From NCBI RefSeq assembly GCF_025837095.1, contig NZ_CP107551.1, forward strand, positions 434,001 to 498,000: a stretch of 64,000 nucleotides of DNA, written 5' to 3'. The notes below the pieces were generated by a model, which saw only the letters and a list, made by a program, of their open reading frames with translations, was not told the DNA's origin and searched no databases. This DNA comes from Rhodococcus sp. Z13. Lineage in GTDB: Bacteria; Actinomycetota; Actinomycetes; Mycobacteriales; Mycobacteriaceae. Made by a program: the position numbers and the translations under genes. Shown piece after piece: positions 5,898-8,880 of the stretch (the first letter of the stretch is position 1; each line of letters starts with the position of its first letter).

Positions 5898-6731
5898 GTG
5901 CTCCTCACCGTCGACGTCCGGAACACCAACATCGTCCTGGGGGTGTTCACGGGCAGTGGCTCGCACGCGAGGTTGTTGCGGGACTGGCGCGTTCGCACCG
6001 ATCCCCTCATGACCGCCGACGAGATCGCGCTGCTGTTCCGCGGACTGCTCGGCGACACGGCCGATCAGGTCACCGGGGTCGCCGCGCTGTCCACCGTGCC
6101 GTCGGTGCTGCGCGAACTTCGGGTCATGCTCGACCGCTACTGGGCGTCGGTGTCGCATGTCGTCGTCGAACCCGGCGTGCGCACGGGCGTCCCACTGCTC
6201 GTCGACAACCCCAAGGAGGTCGGGGCCGACCGCATCGTCAACAGTCTCGCCGCCTACCACTTCTACGGATCCCCGTGCATCGTGGTGGATTTCGGCACCT
6301 CCACGTGTGTGGACGTGGTGTCGGGCAAGGGGGAGTTCCTCGGCGGTTCCATCGCGCCCGGCGTGGAGATCTCGATGGATGCGCTCGCGTCGCGGTCCGC
6401 GGCGCTGCGGAAGGTCGAACTGGCCCGTCCCCGTGCGGTTCTCGGCAAGAACACGGTCGAGTGCATGCAGTCGGGTGCGGTCTTCGGTTTCGCCGGCATG
6501 GTCGACGGCATCGTGCGCCGGATCTGCGCCGAGGTTCCCGGTTTCGACGGCGACGACGTCGCGGTGATCTGCACCGGCGACAGCGCGCCGCTGATCATGC
6601 CGGAGTCGCGGACGCTCGAGCACCACGAACCCGATCTCACGCTCGAGGGACTGCGTCTGGTGTACGAGCGGAACCAGGTGAGACGAGCAGCACGCGGAGT
6701 TGCGGGTTCCGCTCCGCGCCATTCTGTGTAA
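5898..6731 (+). CDS. coaX: Type III pantothenate kinase
   Basis: Phosphorylates pantothenate in the first step of CoA synthesis. At 277 aa it has the N-terminal phosphate loop [14 protein letters not shown], the pantothenate-site motifs [20 protein letters not shown] and [13 protein letters not shown], and [11 protein letters not shown]. The loop has Arg where many bacteria have Gly (DxGNT); as I recall it, the mycobacterial enzyme also has DVRNT, so I read this as a lineage feature. GTG 5898 is 3 nt after the panD stop. The TAA overlaps the -10 region of the cysteine-leader transcript downstream. Confidence 0.95.
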
Positions 6732-6734
6732 AGA
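6729..6734 (+). promoter_or_regulatory. -10 box for a leaderless leader-peptide transcript
   Basis: TAAAGA (6729-6734, within TGTAAAGATG) overlaps the coaX stop codon and ends 8 nt before ATG 6743. A transcript starting at or next to that A would be leaderless, with the leader ORF at its 5' end. No clear -35 is visible, which is common for such actinobacterial promoters. Confidence 0.5.
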
Positions 6735-6742
6735 TGTCTCCC

Positions 6743-6784
6743 ATGACCCGTTGCATGAGCACCCAGGAGTGTTGTCGAGGCTGA
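6743..6784 (+). CDS. 13-aa cysteine-containing leader peptide (attenuator uORF)
   Basis: The ORF reads MTRCMSTQECCRG and then TGA, with Cys at positions 4, 10 and 11 and a tandem TGT TGT at 6770-6775. It starts at what looks like a leaderless ATG and ends 42 nt before the next gene. Short leaderless ORFs rich in Cys codons are known in mycobacteria as cysteine-responsive attenuators placed before sulfur-metabolism genes. This one has the same layout: leader ORF, Cys codons embedded in a hairpin, and then a rhodanese-fold gene whose ribosome-binding site lies in that hairpin. The coding call rests on context, not on conservation, which could not be tested here. Confidence 0.65.
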   Translation: MTRCMSTQECCRG

Positions 6785-6817
6785 CGTTTCCGCCTCGACC
6801 GATGACACATTCCTGGG
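6762..6817 (+). promoter_or_regulatory. Two-stem hairpin sequestering the RBS of the rhodanese-fold gene
   Basis: Outer stem: CCCAGGAGT (6762-6770) pairs with ATTCCTGGG (6809-6817), nine pairs with one G-U. Inner stem: GTCGAGGC (6774-6781) pairs perfectly with GCCTCGAC (6792-6799). The outer 3' arm contains the GGG of the GGGAG Shine-Dalgarno (6815-6819) for ATG 6827, and the outer 5' arm runs through leader codons 7-10. A ribosome paused at the Cys-Cys codons would cover both 5' arms and free the RBS. A ribosome that reaches the stop and leaves would let the RBS be masked. This is an inferred mechanism from the visible pairing. Confidence 0.65.
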
Positions 6818-6826
6818 AGTTCCCTC

Positions 6827-7291
6827 ATGCGCGCAGCGCTTCTTTCCGCTACCTCCGTTTCCTCCGCTCCGGTTTCCGTTGCCGCTCCGGTCTTCTACCC
6901 GCTGACCGTCGAGCGCACCTATCCCACCGAGCTCACCGCCGCGGTGGTCCGCGGCGCCGTGGTCGTCGACATCCGCACCCACGCCGAACGTGCCGAGCAG
7001 GGAACGCTTCCCGGCGCCCTGGCCATCCCGGCCGAACTCGTCGCCGAGCGGCTCGATCCGGTCAGCCCCGGCCGGCTCGCCGCGGCCGTCGACCACGACG
7101 TCGAGTGGATCCTCGTCTCGGCCGACGGCACCCGCTCGCACGGCGCGGTTGCCGCCCTGCTCGCACAGGGTCTGCGCCGGGTCACGCATCTTGTCGGTGG
7201 CTACGCCGCCATCCGCGCCGCACGCCTGGTCGACGCCATCTCCGTGGCGGAGCACGTCGCCGAGGACGTGGCCCGCGTCACCGCCCACTGA
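6827..7291 (+). CDS. Rhodanese-fold protein lacking the catalytic cysteine
   Basis: A 154-aa protein with a single rhodanese-like domain (residues about 28-140): VVVDIRTHAERAEQGTLPGA, then the active-site loop region LVSADGTRSHGA and VTHLVGGYAAIRA. Classical rhodaneses carry the sulfur-accepting Cys at the first loop position; here it is Ser98, and the whole protein has no cysteine. It therefore cannot act as an ordinary thiosulfate sulfurtransferase. It may be a sensor or scaffold. The first 22 residues are Ala/Ser-rich and could be a weak signal or a disordered tail. RBS GGGAG lies 7 nt before ATG 6827, inside the attenuator hairpin. Confidence 0.8.
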   Translation: MRAALLSATSVSSAPVSVAAPVFYPLTVERTYPTELTAAVVRGAVVVDIRTHAERAEQGTLPGALAIPAELVAERLDPVSPGRLAAAVDHDVEWILVSADGTRSHGAVAALLAQGLRRVTHLVGGYAAIRAARLVDAISVAEHVAEDVARVTAH

Positions 7292-7354
7292 CGGCACCGG
7301 TGTCCGCCCTCCCGGACAGGGCGATCTGCCTCCGGGCCGTCCCCGGGTTTCGGA

Positions 7355-7360
7355 TAGTCT
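7355..7360 (+). promoter_or_regulatory. -10 box of lysS
   Basis: TAGTCT at 7355-7360 ends 8 nt before the GTG at 7369. Transcription would begin at or next to the GTG, giving a leaderless mRNA. There is no Shine-Dalgarno-like sequence between the box and the start codon, which agrees with that reading. Confidence 0.5.
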
Positions 7361-7368
7361 GGTAACCC

Positions 7369-8880
7369 GTGAGTGATGCCACCGTTCAGCAGCCCGACGA
7401 CACCCCCGAACAGATGCGGGTCCGCCGCGACAAGCGCGAACGGCTCCTGGCACAGGGCTCGGAACCCTATCCCGTCATCGTTCCGCGGACGCACACCCTC
7501 GCGGAGATCCGCGCCGCGTACCCCGATCTGGAACCCGACACCGCCACCGGCACCATCGTCGGCATCGCGGGCCGGGTCATGTTCTCCCGGAACACCGGCA
7601 AACTGTGCTTCGCGACGCTGCAGGAGGGTGACGGCACCCAGCTGCAGGTCATGCTGAGCCTCGCCGGTGTCGGCGAGGAGGCACTCGCGCAGTGGAAGTC
7701 CGAGGTCGACCTCGGCGACATCGTGTACGTGCACGGCGAGGTCATCAGCTCCCGCCGCGGTGAGCTCAGCGTCATGGCCGACTCGTGGAACATGGCGTCG
7801 AAGGCCCTGCGGCCGCTGCCCGTCGCTCACAAGGAGATGAACGAGGAGACGCGCGTCCGGCAGCGCTACGTCGACCTCATCGTGCGTCCCGAGGCGCGCC
7901 GCAACGCCCGTATGCGTGTCGCGGTGGTGCGGGAGCTGCGCAACGCCCTCGAGCGGCGCGGTTTCCTCGAGGTCGAGACGCCGATGCTGCAGACCCTGCA
8001 TGGTGGCGCGGCCGCCCGCCCGTTCGTCACGCACTCGAACGCGCTCGACATGGATCTGTACCTGCGTATCGCGCCGGAGCTCTTCCTCAAGCGCTGCGTG
8101 GTGGGCGGTATCGAGAAGGTCTTCGAGATCAACCGCAATTTCCGCAACGAGGGCGCCGACTCCACCCACTCGCCGGAATTCTCGATGCTCGAGACCTACG
8201 AGGCGTACGGCACCTACGACGATTCGGCGCGGATGATCCGCGAGATCATCCAGGAGATCGCGATGGCGGTCTTCGGCAGCCACGTGGTGACGCTGTCCGA
8301 CGGCACCGAATACGACCTCGGTGGCGAATGGAAGACCCTGGAGATGTATCCCTCCCTGTCGGAGGCGATCGGCACCGAGGTGACCCCCGACACCACCCTG
8401 GAGGAGCTCACCGCGCTCGCCGACCGGGTGGGTCTGGAAATCCCCGAGGGCAAGGGCTGGGGCCACGGCAAACTCGTCGAGGAACTGTGGGAGCACATGT
8501 GTGGCGACCAGCTGTACGAGCCCACCTTCGTGCGTGACTTCCCGGTCGAGACCTCCCCGCTGACCCGCGACCACCGTTCCGTGCGCGGCGTCACCGAGAA
8601 GTGGGATCTCTACGTCCGCGGTTTCGAGCTCGCCACCGGCTACTCGGAACTCGTCGATCCGGTGATCCAGCGCGAGCGGTTCGTCGACCAGGCGCGCCTG
8701 GCGTCGGCCGGTGACGACGAAGCGATGGTCCTCGACGAGGATTTCCTCGCCGCCATGGAACAGGGAATGCCGCCCACCACGGGTACCGGAATGGGAATCG
8801 ATCGCCTTCTCATGGCGCTCACCGGTCTGGGTATCCGGGAAACAATCCTGTTCCCGATTGTCCGGCCGAACGCCCGTTAA
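7369..8880 (+). CDS. lysS: Lysyl-tRNA synthetase (class II)
   Basis: Charges tRNA-Lys. The 503-aa protein has the N-terminal OB-fold anticodon-binding domain (about 55-165: [20 protein letters not shown]) and a class II catalytic domain. Motif 2 is [20 protein letters not shown] and motif 3 is [15 protein letters not shown] near the C-terminus. The length is that of a plain cytosolic LysRS, so the extra MprF-like membrane domain of the LysX type is absent. GTG 7369 appears leaderless. The position between coaX and lsr2 matches Rv3598c. Confidence 0.97.

Follow-up and report, generated by a model that had tools for sequence, protein, structure and literature searches.

A candidate cysteine-responsive leader between coaX and a rhodanese-fold gene in Rhodococcus and related genera

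The coaX-lysS locus and its leader

The DNA analysed here, which we call the window, is a stretch of 64,000 nucleotides from Rhodococcus sp. Z13; all features described below lie on its forward strand. At the locus, coaX (type III pantothenate kinase, 5898..6731) is followed by a putatively regulated gene for a 154-residue protein with a rhodanese fold (6827..7291; Pfam PF00581, 33.8 bits against a cut-off of 22.2, the fold being called by profile) and then by lysS (lysyl-tRNA synthetase, 7369..8880). The 95 bases between coaX and the rhodanese-fold gene are occupied by a predicted leaderless leader open reading frame (ORF) of 13 codons, MTRCMSTQECCRG followed by a stop (6743..6784, with the ATG at 6743 and the stop codon at 6782-6784). 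Direct reading bears out the first-pass annotation on this ORF and on its tandem Cys codons, TGT TGT at codons 10-11 (6770..6775); a third Cys codon, TGC, lies at 6752-6754. An extended -10 element, TGTGT plus AAAGAT (6725..6735), has its hexamer at 6730-6735, where it overlaps the coaX stop codon, and ends 7 nt before the leader start codon, not 8 nt as first described.

Three stacked arms would fold this region into one long hairpin that spans the leader stop codon and extends up to the rhodanese start codon. The innermost helix is the perfect 8-bp stem described earlier, between GTCGAGGC (6774..6781) and GCCTCGAC (6792..6799). An outer stem pairs CCCAGGAG(TGT) at 6762..6772 with ACATTCCTGGG at 6807..6817, the latter running into the Shine-Dalgarno sequence GGGAG (6815-6819); pairing onto the Shine-Dalgarno region was thus correctly recognized, although the stem has up to 11 pairs, one of them G-U, in place of the 9 first counted. 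The Cys codons overlap the 5' arms and do not lie exactly between two of them, as had been claimed. A third arm escaped the first reading altogether: GCATGAG (6753..6759) pairs with CTCATGC (6824..6830), which contains the start codon ATG at 6827-6829, and so masks the start codon itself.

The 98-nt leader RNA has a computed folding energy of -43.6 kcal/mol, with a z-score of -4.6 against dinucleotide shuffles, none of 200 being as low. Across eight loci of the genus, the window included, z ranges from -2.7 to -4.9, and shuffles as low as the native fold occurred in 4 of 200 for L017 and 2 of 200 for L010. Folding energy alone cannot carry the claim, because 21% of 2,000 random 95-mers from this 70% GC window fold as stably as the leader; we therefore rejected raw folding energy, which is ordinary for the window's GC content, as evidence. 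A scan for a -10 element followed by a leaderless ORF with two adjacent Cys codons found a single site in the 64 kb against a null mean of 0.1 (40 simulations), a comparison that is partly post hoc in that the stricter -10 pattern used first missed the leader site. Rfam gave no match above the gathering threshold in the window, and at 6700-6860 only mir-2041, far below threshold. Between 6600 and 7450, a sigma-70 scan returned nothing, and there were no terminator-like sites (a GC stem with a U run). Conservation is the strong evidence for the leader, above folding energy.

Conservation, covariation and masking

A protein search recovered an orthologue of the rhodanese-fold protein in all 18 genomes of the genus, and the leader is present at all 18 loci, with TGT TGT and the exact 18-mer GAGTGTTGTCGAGGCTGA in every one. 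In L008, L009 and L014, Cys4 is replaced by Arg and Ser6 by Cys, so three Cys are retained. A covariance model built from these loci (R1) matched 123 of 301 genomes of the family, once per genome, and these spread over 10 of 31 genera. In all 70 loci that were read from end to end (18 recovered by protein and 52 by R1), the leader ends in ECCRG-stop, with terminal codons GAG TGT TGT CGA (64 loci) or CGG (6 loci) GGC and a stop of TGA in 69 and TAG in one; R1 itself rewards the ECCRG motif, so that the invariance of the 52 model-found loci is partly due to the route of discovery. Loci found by protein are free of this circularity in their selection by cysteine dioxygenase-type (CDO) genes: a protein search of the class returned 13 such loci in the family, and in 13 of 13 a short ORF carries tandem Cys codons that end at most two codons from its stop, just three of the loci (L228, L233 and L236) being of the ECCRG type. 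The tandem codons singled out in the first-pass annotation are thus kept wherever the locus was found by protein, 18 of 18 in the genus and 13 of 13 in the family.

In the 13 family CDO loci, 25 of the 26 tandem Cys codons are TGT, which is not the preferred Cys codon of the window, whose 53 long ORFs use TGC 106 times and TGT 23 times. In alignment A4, 21 of the 54 rows have the third base of the first TGT outside a standard pair, so pairing may not be the whole reason for this constancy; a slow codon where sensing would take place could account for it. The third Cys is dispensable, since 86 of 157 distinct leaders carry just two (70 carry three and one carries four). The first codons of the leader are far more variable than its last five.

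The -10 element is also conserved. Of 69 loci, 62 have a hexamer of the form xAxxxT whose last base is separated from the leader start by exactly 7 nt, with the extended -10 bases T at -16 in 58 of 66 and G at -15 in 59 of 66. Because the -10 element is held at this fixed spacing, transcription would start at the leader's own start codon.

Beyond the family, a second model (R2) matched 7 of 249 genomes drawn from the order and 6 of 394 drawn from the class, every one of which falls within the same family, and we accordingly make no claim for the class. An exact-motif scan of named genomes returned at least 119 stretches, 80 of them titled; among the matches listed, the titles are mostly Rhodococcus and Nocardia, with Rhodococcoides, Prescottella, Williamsia and Aldersonia also represented. 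A plasmid search yielded a single distant record, from Nocardia farcinica, and was otherwise uninformative. One stretch titled Kitasatospora arboriphila (L149) carries a leader-rhodanese-lysS segment nearly identical to L193 and close to the Williamsia loci, and this record may be mislabelled or contaminated.

Covariation was assessed in A4, an alignment of 54 sequences that is fitted to the model and hence biased towards it; in it, 85.2% of cells hold standard pairs, compared with 82.2% in column shuffles and at most 50.3% with the partner slid. Cells changed on both sides number 74 against 35 in shuffles. Two weaker measures are the number of pairs changed on both sides (11, reached by 13 of 500 shuffles) and of further pair types (39, reached by 54 of 500). 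The clearest covariation among the leader helices is in the start-codon helix: ACG or GCG stands at leader codon 5 in 9 of 23 leaders with a GTG start and in 1 of 46 with an ATG start (69 leaders), and 10 of the 23 retain ATG at codon 5, which leaves a G-U pair. The first-pass annotation had named conserved Cys codons and compensatory change in both stems as checks on its reading; the comparison came out in its favour, with covariation in the structure overall. In the inner stem compensatory change amounts to one pair, at which 6 rows have CGG for CGA together with C for T, the five pairs of the middle helix show no compensated pair in A4, and within the genus alone (18 loci) no pair is changed on both sides.

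Opening the region from the Shine-Dalgarno sequence to the start codon has a computed cost of 12.1 kcal/mol in the free window RNA (genus mean 14.9), which falls to 7.0 (6.4) with a ribosome at codon 10 and stands at 7.8 (6.8) with a shuffled leader. The gain in opening reaches 3 kcal/mol or more at all 18 loci of the genus and at 47 of the 51 others; L091, with its TAG stop, is outside this set, the search pattern having skipped it. With stems that are kept and covary, these energies support the masking of the ribosome-binding site proposed in the first-pass annotation. They say less about where a ribosome would act. The downstream-only model that yields them does not separate the Cys codons from other codons as ribosome positions. 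When pairing across the ribosome is allowed, exposure of the start codon in the genus is 0.45-0.60 for codons 1-9, about 0.2 for codons 10-12 and about 0 at 13-14, whereas the window gives 0.50-0.51 at codons 9-10, 0.34 at 11-12 and 0.12 at 13-14 and in the free RNA; codons 10-11 are therefore not the best stall points in this model. The mean unpaired probability of the start region, a weak measure, changes only modestly with ribosome position.

Cys-rich short ORFs of other forms also precede CDO genes. Ten CDO loci of the family genera g29 and g9 have ECCR or a near variant (GCCG, RCCR) ahead of them. Genus g29 keeps an ECCR leader before CDO, with masking above the shuffled mean in just three of eight loci (L230, L234 and L240) and clear in L240 alone; in g9 (L238), masking is not above the shuffled mean. 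Such weak masking argues against one RNA mechanism shared by all and favours selection that acts on the codons or on the peptide. A putative leaderless ORF of a different kind, MRCCC-stop, stands before CDO in four of seven loci read (L243 and L246-L248) of f34, a different actinobacterial family; like the GFCGCRACR-stop ORF described below, it came to light only through inspection of the DNA upstream of CDO genes. Its end pairs with the CDO Shine-Dalgarno sequence in all three loci folded (L246, L247 and L248), where opening costs 12.5-13.9 kcal/mol against 7.9-9.2 with shuffled leaders.

Two side observations concern related sequences. A second locus in the genome of the window holds a CDO-like gene (G000:C1:4424489-4424938), preceded by a Cys-rich short ORF ending GFCGCRACR-stop (about 1352-1405 of L258, near 4424351-4424404 of G000:C1), for which opening costs 9.4 kcal/mol against 6.5 with a shuffled leader. 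Separately, the Nocardia-type loci (g23) and part of the R. maanshanensis-type loci (g22), namely L087-L090 and L092-L098, carry two extra mutually complementary segments after the leader stop, and their leaders may switch between alternative hairpins.

The genes behind the leader

The genes that follow the leader were scored in 157 distinct leaders, obtained from 189 loci (70 plus 119) after dropping 31 repeats and L091. A CDO gene, recognized by motif, stands directly behind the leader in 118 of the 157 and was not called in 39. The order in most relatives is leader, CDO, rhodanese second, and then lysS where the stretch extends that far, an arrangement that the first-pass annotation missed. 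Two relatives were scanned by profile and both match Pfam CDO_I (40.3 and 46.2 bits, cut-off 23), CDO at the other loci being called by motif only. The best solved relatives of the protein, 8qfl to 8qfr, are named cysteine dioxygenase; in the alignment, an Arg of the relatives' protein stands opposite a Ser of the 8qfl chain. The relatives' CDO-type gene might instead encode an ergothioneine dioxygenase.

None of the 18 genus loci has CDO directly behind the leader, and the rhodanese-fold gene sits there instead. Its product carries Ser at the position of the catalytic Cys in 18 of 18 genus loci (alignment A6, 24 sequences), a second feature that had gone unnoticed. The two differences go together. 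Of the 118 leaders with CDO, 112 could be scored for the rhodanese, and its active-site Cys is there in every one; where CDO is absent, 28 of 32 scorable cases have Ser (23) or Gly (5) and 4 have Cys, the remaining 7 CDO-less calls being cut by contig ends, at least 4 of them (L133, L152, L160 and L215) at the beginning of a CDO-like gene. Among the scored leader loci, then, every loss of the rhodanese Cys falls at a locus with no CDO behind the leader.

On a midpoint-rooted, single-gene CoaX tree of 136 of 144 loci (8 without usable CoaX were dropped), the minimum is 5 changes for CDO and 3 for the rhodanese Cys, against about 28 and about 25 with shuffled labels. We read these changes as probable losses. 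Each rhodanese Cys loss lies within a CDO-less clade, and 3 of the 5 CDO-less clades, the window's included, have one. In the CDO-less loci L065 and L069, the first codons of the rhodanese resemble the first CDO codons of L064 from the same genus; this resemblance points to a deletion that spared the switch and the start of CDO. A deletion of this kind may also have shaped the window locus itself. A CDO_I match occurs elsewhere in 11 of the 18 genus genomes, including that of the window, and the other 7 have no CDO_I match.

The repeated absence of CDO with loss of the rhodanese Cys, in three of five lineages, links the two proteins and offers a natural experiment on the purpose of the leader. 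Its context is sulfur metabolism throughout, with a rhodanese fold in the window and CDO_I in relatives.

A putative attenuator, its rivals and known systems

The leader is real and under selection. It is probably a ribosome-read, cysteine-responsive translational attenuator that is ON at low cysteine; the first-pass interpretation as a cysteine-responsive attenuator is to this extent supported. Conservation, covariation, masking energy, promoter position and gene order make up the computed support, whereas we infer leader translation, stalling, cysteine as the signal and the ON-at-low-cysteine sign. In the proposed mechanism, transcription would begin at the leader's own start codon. With Cys-tRNA plentiful, ribosomes would complete the 13 codons and leave, and the leader RNA would then fold onto the next gene's Shine-Dalgarno region and start codon, keeping that gene off. 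When Cys-tRNA is short, a ribosome would wait at TGT TGT, or at a Cys codon in position 4 or 6, and cover the 5' arms, so that the start site is freed and the gene turned on. The first gene switched would be CDO in most relatives, with the rhodanese second, and in the window's genus the rhodanese-fold gene directly.

That an enzyme that destroys cysteine should be ON at low cysteine is odd, and a real puzzle. Either the thiol dioxygenase behind this cysteine leader would aid sulfur recovery in starvation or the switch can run in the opposite sense. In Gordonia NB4-1Y, cysteine dioxygenase and four sulfurtransferases are reported to go up when organosulfonates replace sulfate (PMC7661421); this report, which concerns mRNA and a gene not matched to the leader locus, fits the ON-at-low-cysteine sign.

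The sign would be reversed if ECCRG-stop were an arrest peptide that stalls at excess cysteine or oxidised thiol and so induces a cysteine-degrading operon; such a device would mirror the attenuators known to respond to cysteine starvation. CDO behind the leader in 118 of 157 distinct leaders speaks for it, Glu and Arg-Gly-stop are conserved beyond the Cys codons, and ECCR or variants persist in the ten g29 and g9 CDO loci, where masking is mostly weak. Yet the Glu, Arg and Gly codons sit in paired arms, which explains their conservation without any peptide; variation is far greater among the opening codons than among the last five; the leader is intact in 18 of 18 genomes of the genus, with no CDO there; and in Gordonia CDO mRNA is reported to be higher without sulfate (PMC7661421). 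We find this reading doubtful, and hold to the same degree of doubt its fuller form, in which QECCRG-stop would induce the CDO operon and, in CDO-less lineages, the sensor would have been left driving a catalytically altered rhodanese-fold protein whose role is new and perhaps not enzymatic. Control by transcription attenuation or Rho-dependent termination, in which the leader hairpin or untranslated RNA behind it would end transcription unless a ribosome stalls, is unlikely: the strong hairpin across the leader stop codon and the extra complementary segments of the Nocardia-type (g23) loci, which could switch, are compatible with it, but there is no terminator-like U run in 6600-7450, and the conserved pairing targets the Shine-Dalgarno sequence and start codon, which termination does not need.

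Masking by itself would account for the stems if the leader were a constant down-regulating structure or a translational coupling element that senses no cysteine. Such an element would hardly keep tandem Cys codons in all 18 genus loci and all 13 protein-found family CDO loci, nor hold to TGT in the 21 of 54 rows that have the first codon's third base outside a standard pair; and a different Cys leader, MRCCC-stop, stands before CDO in 4 of 7 loci read of f34, with an arm that pairs with the Shine-Dalgarno sequence in 3 of 3 folded. We regard it as very unlikely. A chance ORF beside a chance hairpin would be in keeping with a raw folding energy that is ordinary for the GC content, but it is refuted by conservation, with the leader in 18 of 18 genus genomes and 123 of 301 family genomes, and by covariation, and its probability is negligible.

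Short leader ORFs in which the position of the ribosome sets the RNA fold are familiar from the Trp and His leader-peptide attenuators and from TnaC, an arrest peptide for tryptophan. The putative attenuator described here shares that principle and differs from them in acting by translational masking and in having no Rfam family at threshold.

It also has a short upstream ORF with regulatory codons in common with the ilvB1 leader of Mycobacterium tuberculosis, in which the regulatory codons sense charged tRNA and control runs through a Rho-independent terminator (PMC13236596); unlike ilvB1, the present locus has no terminator visible in 6600-7450.

The closest parallels are the leaderless poly-Cys short ORFs of mycobacteria, and the likeness to them noted in the first-pass annotation is right. 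There, a stalled ribosome is proposed to free a masked downstream start (PMC9031893, a review; PMC9094748, eLife 2022). Attenuation of this kind was proposed for cysA2, Rv0485 and nirA by Shell et al. 2015 (PMC4633059, PLoS Genet), is attributed by citing papers to Canestrari et al. 2020 as poly-cysteine leaderless sORF attenuators, and is described with similar logic in PMC13236596 (Nat Microbiol 2026). Among the matches listed in a search of the open-access literature, from which most subscription journals are missing, no title or abstract places such a leader before CDO or before the window's rhodanese. The common features are a predicted leaderless short ORF with contiguous Cys codons that heads a sulfur-metabolism operon, and RNA structure over the ribosome-binding site of the next gene (here computed, and not clearly present in g29). 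The differences are the locus (coaX, leader, CDO where present, rhodanese, lysS), the two tandem Cys codons, a start codon that is itself paired and covarying, and a CDO target in most relatives. The present element would extend cysteine-responsive leader ORFs to one supported by covariation across many genera of one family, among them Rhodococcus, Nocardia, Rhodococcoides, Prescottella and Williamsia. With its unusual target in relatives and its telling record of gene loss, it adds, on the best reading, a new locus to the poly-Cys leaderless sORF attenuators known from mycobacteria.
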